From assembly GCF_017464355.1 (NCBI RefSeq), contig NZ_JAFUAG010000027.1, forward strand, positions 62,001-126,000: a stretch of DNA of 64,000 nucleotides, written 5' to 3'. The position numbers and the translations under genes are program-made. The DNA comes from Ruminococcus sp. Lineage in GTDB: Bacteria > Bacillota > Clostridia > Oscillospirales > Ruminococcaceae. A model generated the notes under the pieces. That model was not told the DNA's origin and searched no databases. It was given only the letters and a program-made list of their open reading frames with translations. This document shows, piece after piece, positions 27,853 through 63,323 of the stretch (positions are counted from its first letter, which is position 1; each line of letters starts with the position of its first letter).

Positions 27853-27881
27853 TTGACAAATGCCCTAAAAAGGTGTATCAT
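27853..27881 (+). promoter_or_regulatory. Promoter of the dockerin gene
   Basis: TTGACA (27853-27858), 17 bases, TATCAT (27876-27881). Confidence 0.7.
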
Positions 27882-27938
27882 AATATAAGTGTTAAAATTT
27901 TATCACAATTTCAATTTTTGTTACAGGAGATGTTTTCT

Positions 27939-28232
27939 ATGAAGATCAGAAAGATAGCTGCTGCTGTATGCGCAGCTGTGATCATGGGTACAATGGGCAC
28001 ACTCAGCGCCTGGGCAGGCAACGTTATCTACGGCGATGTTGACCTCAACGGCGAGATCAACGTTACTGACGTTGTGAAGATTGCGGCTCATGTAAAGAGC
28101 ATCAAGCCTCTCGTGGGTGAAGAACTGAGAGCTGCTGACGTAAACGGTGACGGCAATGTGGATATTACCGATGTTGTAATGGTCGCTGCCCATGTCAAGA
28201 ATATCAAGCCTATAGTTCAGAGAAAGAACTGA
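27939..28232 (+). CDS. Secreted free-standing dockerin
   Basis: 97 aa from ATG 27939 after AGGAGAT; the frame upstream to 27873 overlaps the -10. A signal peptide ends near AWAG (~residue 27). The entire mature part (~70 aa) is a dockerin: two Ca2+-binding repeats, DVDLNGEINVTDVVKIAAHV and DVNGDGNVDITDVVMVAAHV, with a KxIKP extension after each. Dockerins bind cohesins of cellulosome scaffoldins. Here there is no enzyme or binding module attached, and its own promoter and terminator flank the gene. It may occupy or regulate cohesin sites, or serve as an adaptor; that is inference. Confidence 0.92.
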   Translation: MKIRKIAAAVCAAVIMGTMGTLSAWAGNVIYGDVDLNGEINVTDVVKIAAHVKSIKPLVGEELRAADVNGDGNVDITDVVMVAAHVKNIKPIVQRKN

Positions 28233-29457: not shown

Positions 29458-30480
29458 ATGGCGGAAACCAGATTTATCAAGACGGTCGAGTTCGGCGGTT
29501 ATGACAGAAACGACGTTATCAAGAGATTGGAATTTCTGAACACCCAGGTGTTCGATCTTAAAAATGAACTGCGTGAGACCAAGCTGATAATGGAGGAGTA
29601 CAAGAAGGGCTCCGACGAAGAAAAGGCTCACGAGACCGTGCTGGCACAGGAAAAGGTAAAGCTGACCAGCCTGCAGGTGCAGAATGAAACTACTTCCGCT
29701 AAGCTGAAAGCAGCTGAGGAAGACAAGGCTAAGCTCAGTGAAGAACTGGCTGCCCTTAAGGCTGCCCACGAAGAGATGACCAAGGAGCTGGAAGATGTAA
29801 AGAGCAAGCTGAGCGCATATGAGGCAGATAACGAAGCTACTGCCCTGAGCCAGGTGTTCATAGCAGCACAGGCTTCCGCTAATGCCGTTGTTGCCAATGC
29901 CAATAAAGAGGCTGAGGACAAGAAGGCACAGTGCGACCAGCTGGTCAAGGATATGATAGATGATGCTAACCATACAGCAGCCGAGATAGTCTATGAGGCC
30001 GAAAAGAAGGCCGCTGAGACCGAGGCTGAGAGCAAGAACGCTTCCGAGAAGATGAAGGTGGCTTCCAATAACCTGAGAGCTGCCATGCTGACCGATGTGG
30101 AAGAACTGAGCAAGCAGATGACCCAGCTGAATGAAGCTTTTGAACTGCTGAAGAACAAGAGCGACGAAGCTACAAAGCTGCTTCAGACCACCGAGAGCAA
30201 GCTGACAGCAGGCGGTGTTCCCGAGTTTAAACTGCCCGAGACCTTCGAGGCACAGCTGCCCGATGCTCCCGAGCCCAGAAAGCCTTCCGAGCAGAACAAG
30301 AAGTCCAATGCCAAGCTGGACGAACTCCAGAAAATGGCAGCTGCACTGGCAGGCGGCGGTGACACAGGCGAAAAGGCTGAGGAAGCTGCTGAGGAAAAAT
30401 CTGAAGAACCCAAGGAAGAGAAAAAATCAGGCGGTGTTGACCTGGCAGATCTGCTGAAACAGGCGGACGCGCTGAAATAA
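29458..30480 (+). CDS. DivIVA-like coiled-coil protein
   Basis: 340 aa from ATG 29458 after AGGAGG. The N-terminus has the membrane-targeting pattern of DivIVA (FGGYDRNDVIKRLEFL, ~12-27), then a long coiled coil (~30-130), an Ala-rich amphipathic middle (~135-230) and a Pro/Glu/Lys-rich tail ending DLADLLKQADALK. DivIVA-family proteins mark curved membranes at poles and septa and recruit partners. It is the first gene of an operon with the hydrogenase-like sensor, so it may localise that protein. That partnership is inference. Confidence 0.75.
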   Translation: MAETRFIKTVEFGGYDRNDVIKRLEFLNTQVFDLKNELRETKLIMEEYKKGSDEEKAHETVLAQEKVKLTSLQVQNETTSAKLKAAEEDKAKLSEELAALKAAHEEMTKELEDVKSKLSAYEADNEATALSQVFIAAQASANAVVANANKEAEDKKAQCDQLVKDMIDDANHTAAEIVYEAEKKAAETEAESKNASEKMKVASNNLRAAMLTDVEELSKQMTQLNEAFELLKNKSDEATKLLQTTESKLTAGGVPEFKLPETFEAQLPDAPEPRKPSEQNKKSNAKLDELQKMAAALAGGGDTGEKAEEAAEEKSEEPKEEKKSGGVDLADLLKQADALK

Positions 30481-30529
30481 TATAAGGTTTGGGTAAGCTC
30501 GCAGAGGCGGGCGGTAAGGAGTGTATATT

Positions 30530-32212
30530 ATGAGTGAAATGATTATTGTCAGACCTGACAAGTGCGTAGGCTGTAATGCGTGTGTGAGATCATGTCCCGC
30601 ACCCGAGGCCAATATAACCAAAATGGTCGAGGGCGGCAGGTTCATCACCACCGTAAACCCCGACAGATGTATCGCCTGCGGCGAGTGCGTCAAGACCTGT
30701 AATCACGGCGCGAGAGACTACATAGATGATACAGATGAATGCATGAGCAGACTGGAAAAGGAAAAGCTGATAATCATGGCTACCCCCGCTATAAAGTCTG
30801 TTTACCCCACTAAGTGGAAGGGAATACTTGACTGGTTCCGCAAGAAGGGCTGCCTTATCTATGACGTATCTTTCGGCGCTGATATCTGCACCTGGGCTCA
30901 CCTGAGGGCTATCGAGCAGAAGAAGGTCGGCAACGTTATCACCCAGCCCTGCGCTGCCATAGTAAAGTATGTTGAGACCTATCAGCCCAAGCTGCTGGCT
31001 AACCTTTCTCCCATACACAGCCCTATCTCCTGCGGTGCTACCTATATCAAGAAGTACCTGAGGAGAAATAACCCCATAGCTGTGCTTTCTCCCTGTATCG
31101 CCAAGAAGAATGAGTTCGAGGAAACAGGCCTTGTGGATTACAACGTTACCTTCCGCAAGCTGAGCGAGTATTTCGAGAAAAACGGCATTACTATCCCCGT
31201 ATCCAATGCGGAGGAGTATGAGTATAAGTTCGATGACCAGCAGGGTCAGATGGGTGCGGTATACCCCCGTCCCGGCGGACTCAGAGATAATATCTGGCTG
31301 CATAACCCCGATATAAATATCACTACTTCCGAGGGTGTACACAAGGTATATCCCGAGCTGGATATGTACGCCGAGATGCCCGATTTCAAGCACCCTGAGG
31401 TGTTCGATGTGCTTTCCTGCGAATTCGGCTGCAACGAAGGTCCCGGCACTGCCACTACCCAGAGCATTTTCGATATCATGCTGACCATGAAGGAAGTCGA
31501 GAAGGAGGCCAAGAGCCGCCAGAAGTCAGGCTTTATGGGCAGAGGCGACGACAGGCTGTTCAAGAAGTTCGATGATGAGCTGAAGCTCAATGACTTCCTG
31601 AGAAACTACAAGCCCGTTACCCCCACTCCTGTGCCTACCGAAAGACAGCTCGAAAGCGTATACGAGAGCATGGGCAAGCATGAAGAGGCTGACAGACATT
31701 ATGACTGCCGTGCCTGCGGATACAGGACCTGCCGCGATATGGCTATCGCTATCTACAGAGGTCTGAATACTCCCGATAACTGCGTTATCCACGCTAAGTA
31801 TGTCATGGTGGCAAGGCACAGCCAGCTGGCTGAACAGCATGAGAAACTGGCTGAGATAACCTATGAGTGTCTTGAACTTTCCGATAAGCTCAAGGGCAGC
31901 GTTGACAGCATAATGAAGAATATGGAAACTATCGGTGACTCCACCTCCAAGACCAGTGAGAGAGCAGGTGTCGTAAGGGATCTGCTGCAGAACGTAGTTT
32001 CTTTCTGCCACGATAATTCCACCATGGATTCGGGCAGCGTTTCTCAGCTGATAACTATACTGGAGACCACTATCTCCGCTTTCAGTGCCCTGGACGACAA
32101 CGTTAACGCTACTAACGAAAGCTCGGGCATAATCAAGAATTCTATCAGCGATATAACCAATCTTGTTGAGGAGATAAACCAGACTCTCCACAAGTCTACT
32201 GAGAAGAAGTGA
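30530..32212 (+). CDS. Sensory [FeFe]-hydrogenase-like protein with chemoreceptor-like tail
   Basis: 560 aa from ATG 30530, eight bases after AAGGAG. Order: two [4Fe-4S] ferredoxin motifs (CVGCNACVRSCP and CIACGECVKTC), a hydrogenase H-cluster domain (~75-400) with L1-like QPCAAIVKYVETY, L2 PCIAKKNEF and L3-like CEFGCNEGPG, so four candidate H-cluster cysteines are kept; a further Fe-S-type domain CRACGYRTCRDMA (~395-425); then ~130 residues of coiled coil (LEKLAEITYE to the C-terminus) like an MCP signalling tail without a membrane segment. This fits the group C/D sensory hydrogenases rather than a bulk H2 enzyme. No maturases (hydEFG) lie nearby. Confidence 0.8.
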   Translation: MSEMIIVRPDKCVGCNACVRSCPAPEANITKMVEGGRFITTVNPDRCIACGECVKTCNHGARDYIDDTDECMSRLEKEKLIIMATPAIKSVYPTKWKGILDWFRKKGCLIYDVSFGADICTWAHLRAIEQKKVGNVITQPCAAIVKYVETYQPKLLANLSPIHSPISCGATYIKKYLRRNNPIAVLSPCIAKKNEFEETGLVDYNVTFRKLSEYFEKNGITIPVSNAEEYEYKFDDQQGQMGAVYPRPGGLRDNIWLHNPDINITTSEGVHKVYPELDMYAEMPDFKHPEVFDVLSCEFGCNEGPGTATTQSIFDIMLTMKEVEKEAKSRQKSGFMGRGDDRLFKKFDDELKLNDFLRNYKPVTPTPVPTERQLESVYESMGKHEEADRHYDCRACGYRTCRDMAIAIYRGLNTPDNCVIHAKYVMVARHSQLAEQHEKLAEITYECLELSDKLKGSVDSIMKNMETIGDSTSKTSERAGVVRDLLQNVVSFCHDNSTMDSGSVSQLITILETTISAFSALDDNVNATNESSGIIKNSISDITNLVEEINQTLHKSTEKK

Positions 32213-32249
32213 CAGTCCGTCCCGAACGGGACAGAAAGGTCGGTGCATC

Positions 32250-32495
32250 ATGGAATCTGAAGTTGCTGTCGCTGTGATCATCGTTGAAAGAGGTGCTTCG
32301 GTGGAAGGCGTTAACAGCCTGCTCCATGAATACAGCGATTATATCATCGGCAGAATGGGCGTGCCCTATAAAGACAAGGGCATAAACATCATAAGTGTTG
32401 CTTTTGATGCCCCGGCCGATATCATTGAGGAGCTCTCTGAGAAAGTCAATGCTCTGGAGGGTATTTCTTCAAATACTGTTTTTTCTGTTGGATGA
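32250..32495 (+). CDS. TM1266-type iron-only hydrogenase system regulator
   Basis: 81 aa from ATG 32250 after AAAGGTCGG. A small ferredoxin-like alpha/beta (ACT/NikR-C-like) protein: VAVAVIIVERG, the YIIGRMGVPYKDKGINIISV stretch and a regular C-terminal helix are the pattern of the TM1266 family, which is repeatedly found beside [FeFe]-hydrogenase genes. It lies 37 nt after the hydrogenase-like sensor, which supports the assignment. It has no DNA-binding domain, so it may act as a ligand-binding partner. Confidence 0.82.
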   Translation: MESEVAVAVIIVERGASVEGVNSLLHEYSDYIIGRMGVPYKDKGINIISVAFDAPADIIEELSEKVNALEGISSNTVFSVG

Positions 32496-32615: not shown

Positions 32616-32670
32616 ACTTAAGTACCACATTTTTACTTGACAATTTTATCAAAAAGTGCTATACTTAAGT
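32616..32670 (+). promoter_or_regulatory. Promoter of the TerY-P operon with two ACTTAAGT boxes
   Basis: TTGACA (32637-32642), 17 bases, TATACT (32660-32665). The palindromic octamer ACTTAAGT occurs at 32616-32623, upstream of the -35, and at 32663-32670, across the -10 end, 47 bases apart. A ~120-nt leader follows, with a CCATTGT/ACAATGG hairpin at 32718-32754. Confidence 0.7.
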
Positions 32671-32793
32671 AAATGTATTATGAGTAGATCATAGATAAAT
32701 ATTTTTACTTAAAAAGCCCATTGTTAACGGCAGATAAGGCTGTGAGGACAATGGCGGGAATTTCAATTTTTTATATGTCAGGAGAGAAGATTT

Positions 32794-33858
32794 ATGCAGT
32801 GTGAAAGATGTAATGCCGAGCTGCCACCAAACGCCATCGAATGTCCCGAATGCGGCGCTCCTGCTCCGCAGAATATCGAAGGCTTTGAAAATACCATGGA
32901 GATCCAGCATATACTGAAAACTATCATGGAAAAACATGGCAGCATACTGATCAACGACCCGACCCAGTTCGTGTCTATGCTCAATGATTACCTGAATGGC
33001 TATGATAAGGAACGCAGACTGCTGGTGAATGCCATGAGGGCAGGCGTTCTGAAAAATATGGTCAAGGAAGAAAAGACTAACAGGGAATATGCCCTGCTCA
33101 GCGCGAAGAGCTACATGATAAATGAGCTGTTCGTTTCCGAAAATGCCGCTGAGTTCGTGCTGGCCTGCTTTACCTATACCCTGGGCTGGCCCTATGACTC
33201 CTCCATGTCCCATAAGGAAGAGGAGAAGAAGGACGAGGAGCCTGAGGAAGAGGAGAAGGATGTCGTTAAGGAGCCTAAGCTGCGTATCGACAGCAAGATC
33301 TATAAGACCTCCGATGCGGGCAGACACAGACTGGCAAGAAATATCACTATCCCTGAGGGCTTTACCAAGATCGACAGCTTCTGCTTCGATAGGTTCACCT
33401 TCATGAGGTCTATAAGCCTGCCTTCCACCATGATGGCCATAGGCGACTACGCATTCGCTGAGTGCAAGAACCTCAAGGGCATCGAACTTCCCGAAGGCCT
33501 GAAGGTCATCGAACAGGGCGCTTTCAGCCAGTGCGGCAAGCTCGCAATGATAAAGATACCCAGGGGAATTCTTGAAATACCCGACAACACTTTTGAGTTC
33601 TGTGCCAACCTCAGCGTGGTAGAGATACCCAATACTGTCAGCAGTATCGGCGTTGAGGCATTCTCGGGCTGCGAAAAGCTGGAAAAGCTGTTCCTGCCCG
33701 ACAGCGTTAAGTTCATCGATAAGAACGCTTTCTCTTATTGTCCCGAACTTACCATACGCTGCTACAGGAACTCTTATGTACACAAATATTGCCTGACCTA
33801 CAATATCGATTTTGAAACGGTAGAGATAGGTGTGGGCCTGAAGCAGAAGCCAATATAA
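32794..33858 (+). CDS. Zinc-ribbon protein with leucine-rich (BspA-type) repeats, cytosolic
   Basis: 354 aa from ATG 32794 after AGGAGAG. The N-terminus is a zinc ribbon (CERC at 3-6, CPEC at 17-20). A helical middle (~30-155) is followed by a Glu/Lys-rich acidic patch. From ~170 on there are about six LRR_5 repeats of the pattern SLPSTMMAIGDYAFAECKNL. BspA-type LRR proteins are usually secreted; this one has no signal peptide, so it should act inside the cell as a binding scaffold. It is first in an operon with a kinase, vWA and phosphatase. Confidence 0.85.
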   Translation: MQCERCNAELPPNAIECPECGAPAPQNIEGFENTMEIQHILKTIMEKHGSILINDPTQFVSMLNDYLNGYDKERRLLVNAMRAGVLKNMVKEEKTNREYALLSAKSYMINELFVSENAAEFVLACFTYTLGWPYDSSMSHKEEEKKDEEPEEEEKDVVKEPKLRIDSKIYKTSDAGRHRLARNITIPEGFTKIDSFCFDRFTFMRSISLPSTMMAIGDYAFAECKNLKGIELPEGLKVIEQGAFSQCGKLAMIKIPRGILEIPDNTFEFCANLSVVEIPNTVSSIGVEAFSGCEKLEKLFLPDSVKFIDKNAFSYCPELTIRCYRNSYVHKYCLTYNIDFETVEIGVGLKQKPI

Positions 33859-33881
33859 GGAGAAAGTGGAGGAAGTAGCAA

Positions 33882-35225
33882 ATGGTTGAACTGAAGATCG
33901 GCCAGGAGGTCGAGATGGAATTCGGAGGCAGAGCGAAAGTCCTCAAGGTCATCGGCAGCGGTGGTCAGGGTATCGTTTACCTCGTCGAATTCAATGCACA
34001 GAAATGGGCGCTGAAATGGTACGATGTGGACAAGATCAAGCGCCCCAAGGAATTCAGACAGAACATCAAGAACAATATCCAGGACGGTGCGCCCAGCAAC
34101 AAGTTCCTGTGGCCCAAGTACCTGACCAAGGAAAACGATCAGGGAACCTTCGGCTACATAATGGAACTCAAGCCCGAAAGCTTTGATTCTTTCGTGGATA
34201 TCCTCAATACCTACAAGCTGGTCATCGACCCGCTGACAGGCAGGGCTACCAAGCAGGCTGTAAGGTTCCAGAGCCTTTATGCTATGGTAACAGCCGTTAT
34301 CAATATCGCCAATGCGTTCAGACAGCTGCACCGTGTGGGCAAGAGCTATCAGGACCTTAACGACGGCGGTTTCTTCATCAACGTGAATACAGGCGCTGTC
34401 CTCGTCTGCGACTGCGATAACATCGCACCTGACGGAAGCAACTTCGGTATCGGCGGTAAGCCCGGATATATGGCTCCCGAGGTCGTAAGAGGCATCGCTA
34501 AGCCTGATGTGCAGACAGATAAGTATTCGCTGGCAGTAGTTCTTTTCAAGCTGCTGTTCAGGGGCGACCCCATGGAGGGCGAAAAGGTCGTCAAGGACGT
34601 TTGCCTGACAGAGTCTTCCGAACTGAAGCACTACGGTCAGGACGCTGTGTTCGTTTATGACCCTGACAATGCCACTAACAGACCTGTAAGAGGCATTCAT
34701 GACAACGTCATCAAGTTCTGGAGGATATATCCCAAGTATATCAGAGATGCTTTCATACTCTCCTTTACTTCAGGTATCTCCGACCCGAACAAGCGTATAA
34801 TCGAGAACGAGTGGCAGAAGCTGTTCATCCGCCTGAGATCTGAGATAATCCAGTGCGTATGCGGCAGGACCAACTTCACTTCGATGTTCGCACAGGCCGA
34901 TGAAAAGACTTTCCGCTGCCCTAAGTGCGGCGCAGAGTTCGCAACACTGGGATTCAGCAACAGGGATAACAGAATGCCGCTTTATGTGGGCTGCAAGTTC
35001 TATAAGTGCGAGATAGACCCCGATTGCGACGATTTCCTGACTGTGGCAGGCGAGCTGGTAGAGAACAAGCTCAAGCCCGGTGTGCTGGGTATCAAGAACT
35101 GTACTGAGGATACCTGGCAGGCAAAACTCCCCGATGGCAAGTATTATCCCATCCAGCCCGGCAAGGGCTTCCCGATATGGAAGGACCTGGAAGTCGATTT
35201 CGGCAAGGTCACCGCGAGAATATAA
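33882..35225 (+). CDS. Protein kinase with C-terminal zinc ribbon (TerY-P triad kinase)
   Basis: 447 aa from ATG 33882 after GGAGGAAG. Kinase features: Gly loop GSGGQGIVYLV (~28-38), ATP Lys45 in WALKWY, catalytic loop YQDLNDGGFFIN with Asp158 in place of HRD context, a DFG-like CDCDN, and GYMAPEV. All residues needed for catalysis appear present. C-terminal to the kinase lies a zinc ribbon (C325-x-C327, C346-x-x-C349) and a ~90-aa beta-rich tail. No membrane segment. In the TerY-P triad a kinase of this type occurs with a vWA protein and a PP2C phosphatase, and the next two genes are exactly those. Confidence 0.88.
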   Translation: MVELKIGQEVEMEFGGRAKVLKVIGSGGQGIVYLVEFNAQKWALKWYDVDKIKRPKEFRQNIKNNIQDGAPSNKFLWPKYLTKENDQGTFGYIMELKPESFDSFVDILNTYKLVIDPLTGRATKQAVRFQSLYAMVTAVINIANAFRQLHRVGKSYQDLNDGGFFINVNTGAVLVCDCDNIAPDGSNFGIGGKPGYMAPEVVRGIAKPDVQTDKYSLAVVLFKLLFRGDPMEGEKVVKDVCLTESSELKHYGQDAVFVYDPDNATNRPVRGIHDNVIKFWRIYPKYIRDAFILSFTSGISDPNKRIIENEWQKLFIRLRSEIIQCVCGRTNFTSMFAQADEKTFRCPKCGAEFATLGFSNRDNRMPLYVGCKFYKCEIDPDCDDFLTVAGELVENKLKPGVLGIKNCTEDTWQAKLPDGKYYPIQPGKGFPIWKDLEVDFGKVTARI

Positions 35226-35249
35226 ATTAGGAAAGGGCGTATTTAATCT

Positions 35250-36068
35250 ATGAATAACAATATCAATGATGCTGAGGTTAAGGAAAACACCACTGTGGAC
35301 GACCTGCTGGACTTCGATGACGATGATCCCCTGGGTGCCACTGCGGTCTCCAAGAAGAGCCTTGTAATTTTCTTCCTGATAGATACTTCGGGAAGCATGA
35401 AGGGTAAGAAAATGGGTCAGCTGAACACCGTTATGGAAGAGCTGATACCCGAGATAAGAAGAGTAGGTGAGGCTGATACCGATGTTAAGGTAGCGGTACT
35501 GACCTTCGATACAGATGTTAAGTGGATGTACTCTGCTCCTATCTCTATCGAGGAGTTTGAGTGGGCAAGACTGGGCGCACAGGGCGTTACCAGCATGGGC
35601 GCTGCTTTCACTGAGCTGGCAGCAAGAATGTCCAGAAACAGCTTCCTGAATTCGCCTTCACTGTCCTTCGCACCTGTTATGTTCCTGATGACAGACGGTT
35701 ATCCCTCTGATGACTATAAGTCGGGTCTGAAGGCACTGCAGGCTAACAGCTGGTACAAGTTCGGCCTTAAGGCTGCACTGGGTATCGGTGATGAGGCCAA
35801 CGACGAGATGCTGACAGAGTTCACAGGCTCCAAGGACACCGTTGTTCACGCTTACACAGGCGGACAGCTGGCTTCCATGATCAAGATCATCGCCGTTACC
35901 GCTTCTCAGATAGGCAGTAAGTCCATGACTCTTTCTGATGAAACAAATGAGGAGCTCAGCGATGAGGACGTATACGCTGCAAAGCAGAAGATGCTTGGTC
36001 AGCAGATACAGGAGCTGGTCGGCGACCAGACCGACGGCGGCGACGTACCTTACGATACGGGCTGGTAA
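35250..36068 (+). CDS. TerY-type vWA domain protein
   Basis: 272 aa from ATG 35250. After an acidic 30-residue N-terminus comes a vWA domain with a complete metal site: DTSGSM (Asp45, Ser47, Ser49), the Thr in GVTSMGAAF, and the Asp in LMTDGYPS. TerY-like vWA proteins bind Mg2+ and protein partners in the cytosol and are linked to stress and metal-response modules. The C-terminal ~50 aa are polar and end in VPYDTGW. It lies 24 nt after the kinase and 33 nt before the phosphatase. Confidence 0.88.
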   Translation: MNNNINDAEVKENTTVDDLLDFDDDDPLGATAVSKKSLVIFFLIDTSGSMKGKKMGQLNTVMEELIPEIRRVGEADTDVKVAVLTFDTDVKWMYSAPISIEEFEWARLGAQGVTSMGAAFTELAARMSRNSFLNSPSLSFAPVMFLMTDGYPSDDYKSGLKALQANSWYKFGLKAALGIGDEANDEMLTEFTGSKDTVVHAYTGGQLASMIKIIAVTASQIGSKSMTLSDETNEELSDEDVYAAKQKMLGQQIQELVGDQTDGGDVPYDTGW

Positions 36069-36101
36069 AGCGCAGAGTGTCGGAAGGAGTGTTGGAAGAA
36101 A

Positions 36102-37007
36102 ATGTCGTTTAATGGCTTTAGCCACTCGGTAATGGGTCAGAGTCACGTGGCAAAGGGAATTGTTTGCCAGGACAGCTCGGCTCACAAGATAACCGACCGT
36201 TATGCCATAGCAGTTGTGGCTGACGGTCACGGAAGCAAAAAGCACTTCCGCAGTAATATAGGCTCGCAGTGCGCGGTGGAAGCGACTATCGAGACTATAG
36301 ACAGGTTCTATCAGAATGCTGACGAGTTCGAGGAGAACCTGCCCAAAAATCATAAAATGATAATCCGCAATATCGAAAGACAGATAATCGCGGCCTGGAA
36401 CACAAAGGTCATGGAGCACCTTGAAGAACACCCCGTAACAGCAGTGGAGAAAAAGCCCTTTACTCCCGAGGAGTTTGAGGCTATCAATCCCGAGTCCTAT
36501 TACGGCACCACGCTGATAGCAGCTGTGGCAGGCAGGGGCTTCACCTTTGGTGTGCAGATAGGCGACGGAAGCCTGGTAGCCATCTTTGAGGACGGCGAGG
36601 CGGTAATGCCTATGGAGTATGAGGAGGCAAACCCTGCCAACATCACTTCCTCCATGTGCAATGCCAACGCAGCTTCCATGTTCGAGAGTTTCTATATCGA
36701 CAACAAGAAGCTTATCGCACTGTTCTCCTCTACGGACGGTCTGTATACGTCCTTCGGCAGCGAGTATGATTTCAGGGATTATCATGTGATCCTCGCTTCA
36801 CAAGTGAATTCTCCCGCACTGGAGGGTTCGGTGGTGAAGAACATAACCAAGAGGTCTCACTTCGGAACAGAAGATGATATCTCGCTGGCCTGCGTTTACG
36901 ATGTTGAATTTGCAGCAGAAAAGGTGGATCTGCTCAAGGAAATGATCGAGCGCAACAAGAAGCTTGCCGCTGAGAGAAAGGCAAAGCTGCATACTGCAAA
37001 TTTCTGA
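36102..37007 (+). CDS. PP2C-type Ser/Thr phosphatase
   Basis: 301 aa from ATG 36102 with AAGGAG 13 bases upstream. PP2C metal and catalytic motifs are kept: VCQDSS, VVADGHGSKKHF (Asp41 region), YYGTTLIAAV, IGDG, STDGLY and the final Asp in EDDISLACVY. The last ~35 aa form a basic helix. It would reverse the work of the operon's kinase. Genome order kinase-vWA-PP2C is the TerY-P triad. No signal peptide or membrane segment. Confidence 0.9.
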   Translation: MSFNGFSHSVMGQSHVAKGIVCQDSSAHKITDRYAIAVVADGHGSKKHFRSNIGSQCAVEATIETIDRFYQNADEFEENLPKNHKMIIRNIERQIIAAWNTKVMEHLEEHPVTAVEKKPFTPEEFEAINPESYYGTTLIAAVAGRGFTFGVQIGDGSLVAIFEDGEAVMPMEYEEANPANITSSMCNANAASMFESFYIDNKKLIALFSSTDGLYTSFGSEYDFRDYHVILASQVNSPALEGSVVKNITKRSHFGTEDDISLACVYDVEFAAEKVDLLKEMIERNKKLAAERKAKLHTANF

Positions 37008-37062
37008 TATCGGAAGTAACGGGATAAGAAAAATTATAGGTGATTGGAGTATATATTTTATT

Positions 37063-37986
37063 ATGGAAAAGAAAAAACAGGATAACGGCAATATAGTCGT
37101 AGTAGTGATTTGCGCAGTTCTCTACATAGCAGCATTTATCGTACAGACCAGAGGTATCAGCGGCTTGTCGCCTATCTTAGCTCAGGCACAGGTAGTAATA
37201 TCTATCATCATGACCATGTTCGGCAAGAAGAAGGGTATGATAACAGGTGTCGCTCTCAATGCGATAACAACACTGATGGCTTTACTCAGGGCATTAAGGT
37301 CTGTGAAGACCGATGAGTTCAGTGTAAGTGATCTGGCAGGTGCCGCCGTTGCTTTCATATCTATCGGTATCGTTCTGCTGATATATTTCTATGTCAACAA
37401 GAGTGACAGAATGACCGCAGAGCTTCAGGAAAGCTATCAGGAAGCTATCGAGAAGAACCGCATAATCGAGCAGCAGGGCAAGTCCGTGCAGTTCCTGGCT
37501 TACTACGACCAGCTGACAGGTATGCCCAACAGACAGAGCTTTATGGACGAGCTTGAAAAGCAGATCAAGGAAAAAGGCGACTGCGTGGCTATCTATGTTG
37601 ATATGGACGATTTCAGACGTATCAATGATAACTACGGCCATGCCATAGGCGATGAGCTGCTCAAGCGCTACGCTGATAAGATCAAGGATTACTGCAGCGA
37701 TAACTCCTTCGCAGCCAAGATAGGCGGCGATGAGTTCGGTATAATCCTCACAGGCAGCAAGACTCAGGAAGCTATCTTCCAGTATGCTGCAGGTATCAGC
37801 AAGATCTTCAGCGAGCCCATCGAGATCGGCGGAAATATCTACACCGTTGCAGCAAGCTACGGCGCAGCAAGCTTCCCTGAGAACGCTATGACGGCTGATG
37901 ACCTGTTCAGATGTGCCGAAAGTGCAATGTTCATTGCAAAGGAAAGCGGCAAGAACCAGCTGTGCTTCTACACAAGGCAGGGCTGA
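37063..37986 (+). CDS. Membrane-bound GGDEF diguanylate cyclase
   Basis: 307 aa. The start ATG 37063 gives a natural N-terminus; GGAG lies 13 bases upstream. Three or four membrane segments (~10-115) with a short loop, a coiled-coil linker (~120-145), then a GGDEF domain with YDQLTGMPNRQSF, VDMDDFRRIND and intact KIGGDEFGI (~residue 222). It should make c-di-GMP. The gene sits between the PP2C phosphatase and the YPQQG-repeat protein on the same strand with short gaps, so it may take input from this phospho-signalling operon. Confidence 0.88.
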   Translation: MEKKKQDNGNIVVVVICAVLYIAAFIVQTRGISGLSPILAQAQVVISIIMTMFGKKKGMITGVALNAITTLMALLRALRSVKTDEFSVSDLAGAAVAFISIGIVLLIYFYVNKSDRMTAELQESYQEAIEKNRIIEQQGKSVQFLAYYDQLTGMPNRQSFMDELEKQIKEKGDCVAIYVDMDDFRRINDNYGHAIGDELLKRYADKIKDYCSDNSFAAKIGGDEFGIILTGSKTQEAIFQYAAGISKIFSEPIEIGGNIYTVAASYGAASFPENAMTADDLFRCAESAMFIAKESGKNQLCFYTRQG

Positions 37987-38020
37987 TAAGAAGTATTTTG
38001 AAAGGTAATTGGTGTGTACT

Positions 38021-39502
38021 ATGGAAATTAGCGAGCTTTATAATATTGCAAAACAGTATGCAGATATGATAGGGCAGGAAAAGCCCGAGTTTGTTTCCGC
38101 GGCTGAATCGGCTATCTGCGTTATAGCTGACAGCAATGACCAGCTGACCACAGGTGTTTCCAGCGTTACTGTACGCGGCGGACAGGTCGAGGTCATACCC
38201 GCAGAAACTGTGGCGGTAAGAAGATTTATCGACAACGTCGAAGGCGCTTCTGCCAAGAATATCGTGACCATGATGTTCAAGGAAGCTGCAGTTGTTGACA
38301 CCGCCAAGGCTTCGCTTATGATACTTGCCCAGGCAGATCCCGCAAACGGTGACTGCATGGTCATGACTTCCGCTGAGGAAGAAAAGGCGCTGAGAGATAT
38401 CGTGCCCGTTCCCGAGGTCGAAGAAGCAGTGGAAGCTGCAGCTGAAACTCCCGAGGCTCCCGCAGAGGAAGCTGGTGTTGAAGAAGCAGCTAATGAAGCT
38501 GTGGCAGAGGTCGCTGCCGCTGCCGAGACCAGCATGGAAGACCTGATGAACGGCTTTGATGTTGAGGTAGAGGCTCCCGAGCAGGAACAGACCCAGGAGC
38601 AGATAGCTGAGTCTTACATGGCTGAAAAGGTGGGCGAGCCCGCTGAGTTCGCTGATGGCTTCAGCGTTGACGAGAGCAATCCTTTCTTCGAGGAAGCAGC
38701 AAGCGGCCCCGACTCCGAGGTCAAGACCCTTGATAACGGCGTTAAGTCAATGTTCGACCAGCCTACAGATGCAACTGCAAAGGGCGCTGCAGGTTTCAGC
38801 GTACCTCCCGTACAGGGCGGCTACCCCCAGCAGGGAATGCAGGGCGGTTATCCTCAGCAGGGCATGGGCTATCCCCAGCAGGGTATGCAGAGCGGATATC
38901 CTCAGCAGGGCATGGGCTACCCCCAGCAGGGCAGACAGAGCGGCTATCCTCAGCAGGGCATGGGTTATCCCCAGCAGGGTATGCAGAGCGGCTATCCTCA
39001 GCAGGGCATGGGTTATCCCCAGCAGGGTATGCAGAGCGGATATCCTCAGCAGGGCATGGGTTATCCTCAGCAGGGCAGACAGAGCGGCTATCCTCAGCAG
39101 GGTATGGGCTACCCCCAGCAGGGCATGGGCTATCCTCAGCAGGGAATGCAGGGCGGTTATCCCCAGCAGGGTATGGGCGGTTTCCCCACCGCTAATCCCT
39201 ATCCCCAGCAGGGCGCAATGCAGTCCATGACAATGCCGGGTGTTGGTCAGACTTCTGTTCATCTTAAGACAGAAGCTTCGCCTGCTCCCACATCTGTAAG
39301 CCAGGAACTGAAATCTCTCCACGCAGAGGATCTGATGAAGTCCACCTCCGTCAACACCTCATCTCTTGCTGATGACGATGATGAGGACGAAGAAGACGCA
39401 CCTATGACCAGAGAAGAAATGCTCAAGGCTGCAAAGCAGAAAAAGAAGAATGCCAAGATGAACTCAAATTTCAAGAAGAAGATGAGAGATTCAGGCTTCT
39501 GA
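38021..39502 (+). CDS. YPQQG-repeat low-complexity protein of the TerY-P operon
   Basis: 493 aa from ATG 38021; TTG 38009 is an alternative. Residues ~1-115 form a folded domain ([44 protein letters not shown]) that loosely recalls a cytidine-deaminase fold with AE kept but the zinc cysteines lost. An Ala/Glu/Pro-rich linker follows (~130-260), then residues ~265-400 with 16 YPQQG motifs, mainly as pairs [13 protein letters not shown][M/R]QS. The C-terminus has a DDDDEDEED patch and a Lys-rich helix. No signal peptide. It may be a phosphorylated substrate or condensate-forming scaffold of this operon; that is inference. Terminator at 39515..39545. Confidence 0.8.
38818..39225 (+). repeat. Tandem coding repeat (YPQQG units)
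   Basis: About 400 bases of units near 21 bases, arranged mainly as 48-base pairs (two YPQQG motifs plus QS). The units differ at silent sites (TAT/TAC, CCC/CCT), which shows selection on the protein rather than recent DNA slippage alone. Unit number could still vary between strains. Confidence 0.85.
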
Positions 39503-39514
39503 TATAAGAATATT

Positions 39515-39545
39515 AAAGCCGTCGGTAGTTCCGGCGGCTTTTTTG
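39515..39545 (+). terminator. Terminator of the TerY-P operon
   Basis: AAGCCGTCGG (39516-39525) pairs with CCGGCGGCTT (39531-39540) with one mismatch, running into T6. Confidence 0.9.
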
Positions 39546-39685: not shown

Positions 39686-40216
39686 TTACTTGAATTGTAC
39701 GCCCCAGTCGGAACTTATCTTGCCGTATAGCGCCAGCTTAACTCTGCTCTTCTGCCAGCGGAAGAAGTAGGTAACACCACCTACTACCAGCAGAGAACCT
39801 ATAACTGCCAGTACGATACCGCCTACCTTGCCTATCACAAACACACCCAGTGCAACGAAGATAAGCACACCGATGAGTATGATGGGCAGTGCAGAAGTCA
39901 CAAAGCTTCTGTCAGTTACCTTGATGTAGTTCTGTATCTCCTTCAGATCAAAGGATTCATAGTGTCTTGCAATGAAGTTATCGGGTCTTGCCCACTTGCA
40001 GAAATCAGCCACGCTGTTAAACCTTGCAGCATAGTCTCTGAAAGAATAGCCCTTACCAACGTCGGTAACACGGTATTCAACCACATAGCCGTCCTTCTTC
40101 TTGGTGGCATTCAGCACATGGATAATGTTACCGGGCTCGGCCTGAGCCTTGAGCTGCTTTGTTACCAGAAACTTTCTGTCAATAGCTTCATCTATACTGT
40201 TGAGCATATATGTCAT
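39686..40216 (-). CDS. Membrane protein, unknown
   Basis: 176 aa from ATG 40216, which follows GGAAGGAAG by six bases; the frame to 40258 is not supported. Residues ~1-100 are soluble (KKKDGYVVEYRVTDVGKGYSF), then two adjacent hydrophobic segments (~105-148) and a short basic C-terminus. No family is recognised. It stands alone between its promoter at 40303..40331 and a terminator. Confidence 0.7.
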   Translation of the reverse strand: MTYMLNSIDEAIDRKFLVTKQLKAQAEPGNIIHVLNATKKKDGYVVEYRVTDVGKGYSFRDYAARFNSVADFCKWARPDNFIARHYESFDLKEIQNYIKVTDRSFVTSALPIILIGVLIFVALGVFVIGKVGGIVLAVIGSLLVVGGVTYFFRWQKSRVKLALYGKISSDWGVQFK

Positions 40217-40302
40217 AACTATCTTCCTTCCCTGATATATACTTACTATGATCTTCACATGGCAAAAGCCACGATAAAAGCTATATAAATATCCACAAAT
40301 AT

Positions 40303-61871: not shown

Positions 61872-63323
61872 TCATGCCGCAGGTTCTTCGTACTCTGCAA
61901 TGATATCATCGTAGGCCGAGATCGCTTCTTCAAAGCGTTCAGCCATGTCATCGGCTTTGTACAGGCCGTCGGCGGCGGGGGTCATATCCGTGAAAGCCAT
62001 GGGCACTGCCACGGGGGTGTTATCAAGGTCAAGCAGGGAAGTATCCCTCAGCTGAGAAGCCCGCTGGTATACCAGGTCGCAGGAGATGTATTCATCGCCC
62101 CTGCCGTCCTTCCATTTGCAGAAGACCAGCTTGCACCCAATGGGTGTCCTGCCCTCAATGGTATCGGGAAGCTCGTAGTCCTCAGCGCCCAGGGCTGCCA
62201 GCACGCTGCCGATATTTGAGTCGTGTCCGCAGAGAAAAGTGAACCGTCTGCCCTCGGTGTCAAGCTCGCTGTCTATTTCTTCCAGCAGAGGGTGTGCCAC
62301 GTTGGCGGCCACCAGGGGGGCAGTGAAAAGCAGGTCGCCGTAAAGGTCTTTTACCAGACCTATCTTCTGCCAGTCCTCAAAGGTCAGGTCATGGCCGAAG
62401 GCAGCCTTTCGGTCGTCAGGCTCCTCGTAATACTGAAGCACCAGGGCGTCGCTGACAGAGCAGGCTGTCTTCATGGAGCCTGTCATGGAAGGCTCTGCAT
62501 TCTCCTCATAGACAAAGCCCAGGTCATCGGCGGTAAACCCCGTGACAGTGCCGTCCTTATAAGCCGCCGACTCCTCCAGGTCTATGACCTCGGCCAGCAG
62601 GTCGAAGCTTTCCTGTATCTTTTCAAGGTCATCGGCATAAAGCTCACGGGTCTGGGCTTCGGCGGCAGCGTTGTATCCGGGGGAAACATAGGTCAGCTGC
62701 GGGGTGAAGACAGGGTCCATGGTATCGAAGTCCATGTGGTATTCGTTCATCAGGTCGGCCGCGGGAAGCAGGCCTGCCTTGAAATAATTGGCAGTGGCAA
62801 TGGTGCGCTGTTTTGAGTTTGAGTAGAAACGAACCTCGCCGTCTTCGGGGCGGTAGTTCTCGGGGAAAAACTCCTCCTGCTCCAGCCACTTTCTGAAATA
62901 CTGCCCCATGGCAGTTTCGGAGACCCCGCCCCTGAGGGAAAGCTGTGCGGCGGGTGAAGACCATTCCGTCCACTCATGGGGTGTCACCTGCCCCAGCACC
63001 GAGTCCTTGGAGCTTAAGGGCGCACGGATATTGTGCCTGCTGAGCATGACCACCTGCTCCAGCTCAAAGCCCTCGCGGGAAAGGGAATAGGCCACGCTGT
63101 CCTCGGCGGAGGTAGGTTCTTCCGCCTCCTGTTCCTCTTCCTCCGTTGAAGGCGCTTGGGTGACATCAGGGGCTTTTTCCTCCGCCTGCGCCGTGGCGGC
63201 AGCTGTGGTGACTTCTCCCCGTGAAGCTGTGTTTTCGGGGGTGTTCTCAGTGCTCTCACTGCAGGCAGATAGTATCATGCACCCTGCCAGCAGGGCAGCG
63301 GTGTATCTTTTTATTTGTTTCAT
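61872..63323 (-). CDS. Histidine acid phosphatase lipoprotein
   Basis: 483 aa from ATG 63323. The lipobox LSAC gives Cys21 as the mature N-terminus; an acidic Thr/Glu linker (~25-75) follows. The catalytic domain has the branch 2 histidine phosphatase motif RHNIRAP (normally RHGxRxP) near residue 97, YSNSKQRTIATANYF with the second Arg, and the proton donor in CGHDSN. Such enzymes include phytases and glucose-1-phosphatases. It sits on the outside of the membrane and probably releases phosphate from plant or sugar phosphates. Confidence 0.88.
   Translation of the reverse strand: MKQIKRYTAALLAGCMILSACSESTENTPENTASRGEVTTAAATAQAEEKAPDVTQAPSTEEEEQEAEEPTSAEDSVAYSLSREGFELEQVVMLSRHNIRAPLSSKDSVLGQVTPHEWTEWSSPAAQLSLRGGVSETAMGQYFRKWLEQEEFFPENYRPEDGEVRFYSNSKQRTIATANYFKAGLLPAADLMNEYHMDFDTMDPVFTPQLTYVSPGYNAAAEAQTRELYADDLEKIQESFDLLAEVIDLEESAAYKDGTVTGFTADDLGFVYEENAEPSMTGSMKTACSVSDALVLQYYEEPDDRKAAFGHDLTFEDWQKIGLVKDLYGDLLFTAPLVAANVAHPLLEEIDSELDTEGRRFTFLCGHDSNIGSVLAALGAEDYELPDTIEGRTPIGCKLVFCKWKDGRGDEYISCDLVYQRASQLRDTSLLDLDNTPVAVPMAFTDMTPAADGLYKADDMAERFEEAISAYDDIIAEYEEPAA

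Follow-up and report, generated by a model that had tools for sequence, protein, structure and literature searches.

What does a eukaryote-like kinase and phosphatase pair control when its genes share an operon with a leucine-rich repeat (LRR) protein and a low-complexity protein? The question is raised by six genes at 32616..39545 of a 64,000-nucleotide (nt) stretch of Ruminococcus sp. DNA (the window; positions 62,001 to 126,000 of contig NZ_JAFUAG010000027.1, assembly GCF_017464355.1), which a preliminary description had placed in one direction between one promoter and one terminator and had taken for a distinct phospho-signalling module feeding cyclic di-GMP (c-di-GMP). That overall interpretation is partly supported. 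All six open reading frames (ORFs) are real and lie on the + strand at the coordinates first reported, Pfam backs their domain labels (LRR_5 5.6e-50, Pkinase 2.3e-10, VWA 3e-10, PP2C_2 2.7e-35, GGDEF 1.2e-36), and scans recover both the promoter at 32637..32665 and the terminator beginning at 39515. The view that this is a distinct module in Ruminococcus was also right: judged by its gene content, the set is a conserved protein-phosphorylation system of gut and rumen Ruminococcus. On balance it is probably a phospho-switch operon that arose from a TerY-P-like triad, with the scaffold encoded by the last gene, here called the YPQ protein and formerly the YPQQG protein, as its substrate. The features of the operon are as follows.

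32637..32665, + strand: sigma-70-type promoter-like site, TTGACA-N17-TATACT (motif scan, 11/12)
32794..33858, + strand: LRR gene, putative adaptor, with zinc ribbon, N-terminal domain of about 105 aa, acidic linker and BspA-type LRR_5 repeats (ORF, Pfam LRR_5)
33882..35225, + strand: Ser/Thr protein kinase gene with zinc ribbon CxCG...CPxCG and a further C-terminal domain (ORF, Pfam Pkinase)
35250..36068, + strand: TerY-like VWA gene with complete metal ion-dependent adhesion site (MIDAS), DTSGS...T...D (Pfam, motif check)
36102..37007, + strand: PP2C-type Ser/Thr phosphatase gene, metal-site motifs present (Pfam PP2C_2, motif check)
37063..37986, + strand: GGDEF gene, ATG at 37063, signature complete (Pfam GGDEF), hydrophobic N-terminal half by eye
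38021..39502, + strand: YPQ protein gene, deaminase-fold head and low-complexity scaffold (ORF, predicted structure)
39515..39541, + strand: intrinsic-terminator-like site with an 11-pair stem (scan)

When 148 genomes of the same family were searched with the kinase, 12 proved to hold relatives of at least 60% identity. Scanning genome contigs yielded 260 kinase relatives, the best 80 of which, with kinases at least 79% identical and from Ruminococcus plus Oscillospiraceae or Clostridia, were used for locus counts. In this best-80 set, VWA and PP2C genes and a same-strand YPQ-type gene are present at all 67 loci with more than 2.7 kb beyond the 3' side of the kinase, and the LRR gene at 73 of the 75 loci with more than 1.5 kb upstream of it; among twelve further loci checked, nine (L048-L056) carry all five genes on one strand. 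By contrast, the GGDEF gene lies in the operon at just 14 of 82 rows of the kinase tree, and the conserved unit, as these comparisons define it, is therefore one of five genes: LRR adaptor, kinase with zinc ribbon, VWA, PP2C and YPQ protein. Co-occurrence in related genomes, which the preliminary description had set as its own test, thus holds for these five and fails for the GGDEF gene. The tree comprises 91 rows, 3 duplicates and 5 distant rows having been removed from 99, and L061, whose kinase ORF is shorter than 400 aa, stood outside the kinase rows from the start. The kinase lysine, the catalytic Asp and the four ribbon Cys are invariant in 81/81 sequences, and the motifs of VWA and PP2C are likewise invariant across relatives.

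Intergenic gaps in the window are, in order, 23, 24, 33, 55 and 34 nt. A promoter-like element upstream of the LRR gene appears to be conserved as well, TTGACW-N15-19-TATAMT occurring within 420 nt of that gene at 70 of 74 loci with enough upstream sequence (the window counted), compared to 0.45 loci predicted by base shuffles. Two extra promoter-like sites on the + strand, at 33777 (9/12) and 38295 (11/12), are both intragenic. CTTAAG palindromes near the window promoter were considered as an operator and rejected, since only 2 of 78 loci have CTTAAG ahead of the LRR gene.

The YPQ protein had been described as low-complexity, which is true of its Q/P/G/Y-rich repeat arm, with 16 copies of YPQQG, and overlooks a predicted well-folded, deaminase-like domain with which the protein starts. 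Its parts are these.

38021..38425, + strand: cytidine/blasticidin-S deaminase-fold head, zinc ligands lost (predicted structure)
38636..38695, + strand: short motif (regex in 42/67 complete YPQ proteins)
38819..39127, + strand: 48-bp tandem repeat, continuing with indels to about 39213 (repeat scan)
39404..39499, + strand: charged C-terminal tail (regex in 61/67 YPQ proteins; two of the six misses hold masked stretches)

Assignment of the head to the cytidine deaminase fold is based on a predicted model with a structural match and on profile matches to real deaminases, with heads L077, L082 and L101 and rows more than 80% alike excluded from the structure alignment. Pfam gave no match for the window head alone and none over cut-off for the whole YPQ protein, and a PDB sequence search with head profiles returned weak deaminase rows (E 0.25 to 2.2) amid unrelated rows of like E. 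The cytidine deaminase zinc site (C/HxE plus PCxxC) is absent from the window head, which reads PxE (PAE) and has DTAKA in place of PCxxC. Sorted by head, the 99 kinase rows include 72 with the site lost, 11 intact, 2 partial and 14 without a same-strand YPQ gene; 11 of the 91 tree rows lack a scorable deaminase-like head, and the site is intact at 11 of 80 scorable tree loci. The site is thus lost at most loci, the window included, and the modelled head appears to be an inactive relative of a nucleoside-modifying enzyme. It resembles blasticidin-S and cytidine deaminases in predicted fold and in domain length, but unlike them it is devoid of zinc ligands, joined in one protein to a low-complexity arm and a charged tail, and encoded inside a kinase operon.

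The kinase, VWA and PP2C genes had been recognized as a TerY-P triad, and the identification stands. According to PMC11090510, citing Anantharaman et al. 2012, such a triad consists of a TerY-like VWA protein, a PP2C and a Ser/Thr kinase with a zinc ribbon; the window has a kinase with a C-terminal ribbon (and a further domain after it), a TerY-like VWA with the MIDAS pattern DxSxS...T...D and a PP2C-like phosphatase in the same operon, all three contiguous. The VWA protein is 26.5% identical (E 3e-9) to plasmid proteins annotated as TerY-C metal binding, and none of the six operon proteins matches PF15616 (TerY_C) at E 1. TerD linkage and the order VWA-PP2C-kinase lie outside the strict definition of the triad, and the window belongs to a different subtype: its order is kinase-VWA-PP2C, and, as previously noted, TerD is absent, with no match among operon proteins, three other scanned neighbours or the window's contig (the four TerD matches in the genome are all on other contigs). 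In place of TerD or TerY_C the operon has a constant LRR adaptor and a deaminase-fold scaffold. The window triad therefore fits the TerY-P definition, yet by these comparisons sits on a branch apart from the TerD-linked form.

That form, in the order VWA-PP2C-kinase, is found in L182-L185 and L187-L189, whose kinases share 26-29% identity with the window kinase over about 210-280 residues, and at L183 and L187 it adjoins TerD-like genes (TerD and a P-type ATPase, both by eye). It is a separate, distant locus within the same bacterial family; G096 carries both it and a window-type locus, and in G094 and G122 it coexists with 43-50% relatives of the window kinase. A class-wide draw found kinase relatives at E 1e-40 in 5 of 390 other genomes. 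The nearest relatives are triads of distant Clostridia (L198-L202), of Prevotella plasmid NZ_CP091789.1 and of Methylomonas plasmid CP157007.1, which have the kinase first and VWA and PP2C after it, as in the window; none of these loci has a YPQ-type match, and L199 and (by annotation) the Prevotella plasmid, unlike the window operon, have TerY_C as a separate gene beside the triad. No literature on Ruminococcus with TerY was found, and TerY is absent from the 12 papers listed, of 736, for TerY together with a deaminase and leucine-rich repeats, in searches outside of which lay most subscription papers, which may mention the operon.

The LRR protein was correctly listed as a partner of the triad, but its N-terminal domain, common to adaptors with other C-terminal modules, had been missed. 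This domain matches proteins in L198, L199, L191, L061 and L200 (E 1.7e-9 to 2.1e-3), where the modules C-terminal to it include Sel1 (L199, L191), DUF4190 (L198) and LRR_5 (L200). Of the matches below E 0.1 among 1,324 ORFs, none belonged to the canonical TerY-P or deaminase control loci, nor did a first search round find any in L060, L062-L065, L190, L201 or L202; a Prevotella FGE protein matches the longer LRR-protein model only, and a PDB search with the N-terminal profile gave two weak Mdm2 rows limited to the zinc ribbon. We infer an adaptor domain with exchangeable modules, which suggests that TerY-P-like triads may generally use one adaptor domain plus swappable recognition modules. 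On the Methylomonas plasmid (L191:9882-14418), five consecutive adaptor-domain genes lie downstream of the triad, the one that was scanned bearing Sel1 repeats.

The GGDEF gene is best regarded as an optional insertion, present or absent by species; on the kinase tree its state changes at least 4 times. The window protein (DDNDDGGDEF) keeps all signature residues and those that we take to contact metal and guanine, as a diguanylate cyclase would, and the in-operon GGDEF protein of R. albus-type loci is a probable active cyclase. It differs from the usual diguanylate cyclases in being an optional partner, and the GGDEF proteins encoded near the operon in other species are mostly degenerate. Of the 57 full-flank loci of the best-80 set, 49 have a GGDEF gene in the operon or no more than 5 kb away; the commonest such neighbour has N for D in its signature in 56/58 cases and is for this reason probably not a working cyclase. 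It usually adjoins a lipoprotein gene (41/54 full-flank loci), with Peripla_BP_4 in the one scanned. At L048:3899-6170, L059:11140-13481 and many best-80 loci, this Peripla_BP_4-type lipoprotein and a GGDEF protein that usually reads TGNEF are often divergent from the operon, and the pair resembles a sensor of sugar type whose GGDEF domain is non-catalytic. A partial LsrB match had prompted an AI-2 interpretation for the lipoprotein (PMC9540692), which was rejected because ribose- and allose-type models fit better. At L055:10978-17736, seven tandem GGDEF genes, 7/7 with an altered motif, stand between PP2C and YPQ.

The deaminase-like head is also found in non-operon proteins, mostly of 190-290 aa, with the zinc site intact in 8/8 separate copies of the best-80 set and in 5 of 6 examined in further genomes. 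Each of the 13 intact copies is immediately followed on its own strand, at spacings from a 1 nt overlap to a 67 nt gap, by a GGDEF gene of 511-539 aa, whose signature is GSDEF and whose guanine-contact residues are kept in 13/13, the first metal Asp being lost in 12/13. Around 15 ordinary deaminases, taken from 28 weaker matches (<50 bits), no GGDEF gene was found within flanks of up to about 5 kb, shortened in 4 of the 15; beside the copies of the further genomes and the controls alike, the search used a purpose-built profile, not Pfam's. The intact copies examined in the draw of the family came from four genomes, all within the 12 kinase-bearing genomes, an overlap with a chance of 2.6e-5 if genomes were independent, which these are not. 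The genome of the window has three separate head proteins, and a GGDEF gene is found next to the gene of each or at most about 5 kb from it; at L150:7115-9491 (contig C47) an intact-site protein with a charged tail is followed directly by a GSDEF gene, which by its arrangement is a second deaminase/GGDEF module. Searches without most subscription papers found no paper on an inactive deaminase with GGDEF and kinase, and, in titles and abstract starts, no relevant one among nine listed on cytidine deaminase with pseudoenzyme and diguanylate cyclase.

In the favoured reading of a phospho-switch, the N-terminal domain of the LRR protein would bring to the triad a partner or signal from within the cell, the VWA protein would organise the complex via its metal site, and the kinase would phosphorylate, and PP2C dephosphorylate, Ser/Thr in the arm or tail of the YPQ scaffold. 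Cytidine deaminases are oligomers. The head, presumably non-catalytic, could be an oligomeric core, a nucleotide-binding head or both, and it is on this account that phosphorylation is proposed to toggle multivalent assembly, with coupling to GGDEF proteins to follow. The recurrent partner would be a GGDEF protein, probably a working cyclase at R. albus-type loci and elsewhere a degenerate one with guanine-contact residues kept; c-di-GMP is plausible as a direct output mainly at loci whose operon includes the GGDEF gene. It is L059, the second copy in the genome of the window, with LRR, kinase and YPQ genes but without VWA and PP2C, that hints most clearly at the YPQ protein as the partner of the kinase. 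More tentatively, the YPQ proteins may form a new family with a deaminase-fold head and a Q/P/G/Y-rich disordered arm, turned repeatedly from zinc enzyme to pseudoenzyme and building phosphorylation-controlled assemblies (condensates) under kinase, VWA and PP2C, while the two-gene modules of intact sisters with GSDEF would imply a nucleotide-deaminating or -sensing step coupled to GGDEF signalling; this is possible but doubtful. In fibre-degrading gut bacteria the phospho-switch would link a eukaryote-like kinase/phosphatase pair to GGDEF proteins and to a nucleoside-deaminase fold put to a new use, with a likely substrate named and natural variant pairs on hand (zinc site intact or lost, GGDEF gene in the operon or not).

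Several observations weigh against this reading. The best-80 loci are closely related, and their counts are not independent events; recent descent may explain part of the synteny. It is gene association that suggests the YPQ protein as kinase substrate, and at L057 the YPQ gene runs the other way and two GGDEF genes are present, while L058, a second copy in G135, has kinase and PP2C only, among the profiles used. The arm is not Q/P/G/Y-rich in 10 of 67 YPQ proteins and is thus not universal, so assembly via the arm cannot be the whole function. Furthermore, 8 of the 57 full-flank loci have no GGDEF gene within 5 kb, and the nearest one to sister copy L232, which lacks the zinc site, is 2.3 kb away.

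Could the purpose of the module instead be c-di-GMP control through the in-operon GGDEF enzyme, the defining output first proposed? The R. albus-type gene is co-directional with complete signature residues, GGDEF genes recur near the operon, and 32 GGDEF and 13 EAL matches in the genome make c-di-GMP turnover likely, but the five-gene core is complete without a GGDEF gene, which few operons contain, the commonest neighbour has the altered signature, and a search of the genome for PilZ at E 0.001 found nothing, although there are receptors of other types. As the defining output c-di-GMP does not hold up, and this explanation is unlikely. A hydrogen- or redox-sensing relay, with the adjoining [FeFe]-hydrogenase-like protein as sensor and the triad as output, is improbable. 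Hydrogenase-like and DivIVA-like homologues do occur in the ~20-kb neighbourhood at 52 of 54 full-flank loci, on either side and in either orientation, a TM1266-type regulator sits between the hydrogenase-like gene and the operon in the window, and PMC6776011 proposes, for another gene cluster of R. albus, a sensory hydrogenase that has a Ser/Thr phosphatase as a subunit; against this, the genes are separate transcription units at many loci, no common domain links the hydrogenase-like protein and the triad, and close relatives may keep synteny through descent.

Quite improbable is a canonical TerY-P unit for metal/tellurite stress or anti-phage signalling, its partners incidental neighbours. 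PMC11090510 places such triads in tellurite and defence contexts, and the window has the defining domains, a VWA protein resembling the TerY-C-annotated ones and a kinase that matches PADLOC kinase models over short kinase-domain stretches. However, the TerD-adjacent triad is the different, distant locus described above, the contig is without TerD, and the five-gene core is constant in the relatives examined. The defence reading itself was dropped, PADLOC having matched kinases only among the six operon proteins and four from relatives.

Two of the flanking genes upstream are listed here.

30521..32212, + strand: [FeFe]-hydrogenase-like putative sensory protein (homologue in 52/54 full-flank relatives)
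32250..32495, + strand: TM1266-type putative regulator of an iron-only hydrogenase system (profile match)

They are preceded by a DivIVA-like gene (by eye), the three occupying 29458-32495 just upstream of the operon. Downstream, a convergent gene at 39686-40258 (- strand) encodes a protein of ~190 aa in which hydrophobic stretches can be seen by eye and for which Pfam gave nothing over cut-off, and has a homologue in 53 of 54 full-flank relatives. At 27873-28232 lies the gene for a short, secreted-looking protein whose repeats resemble dockerin by eye.
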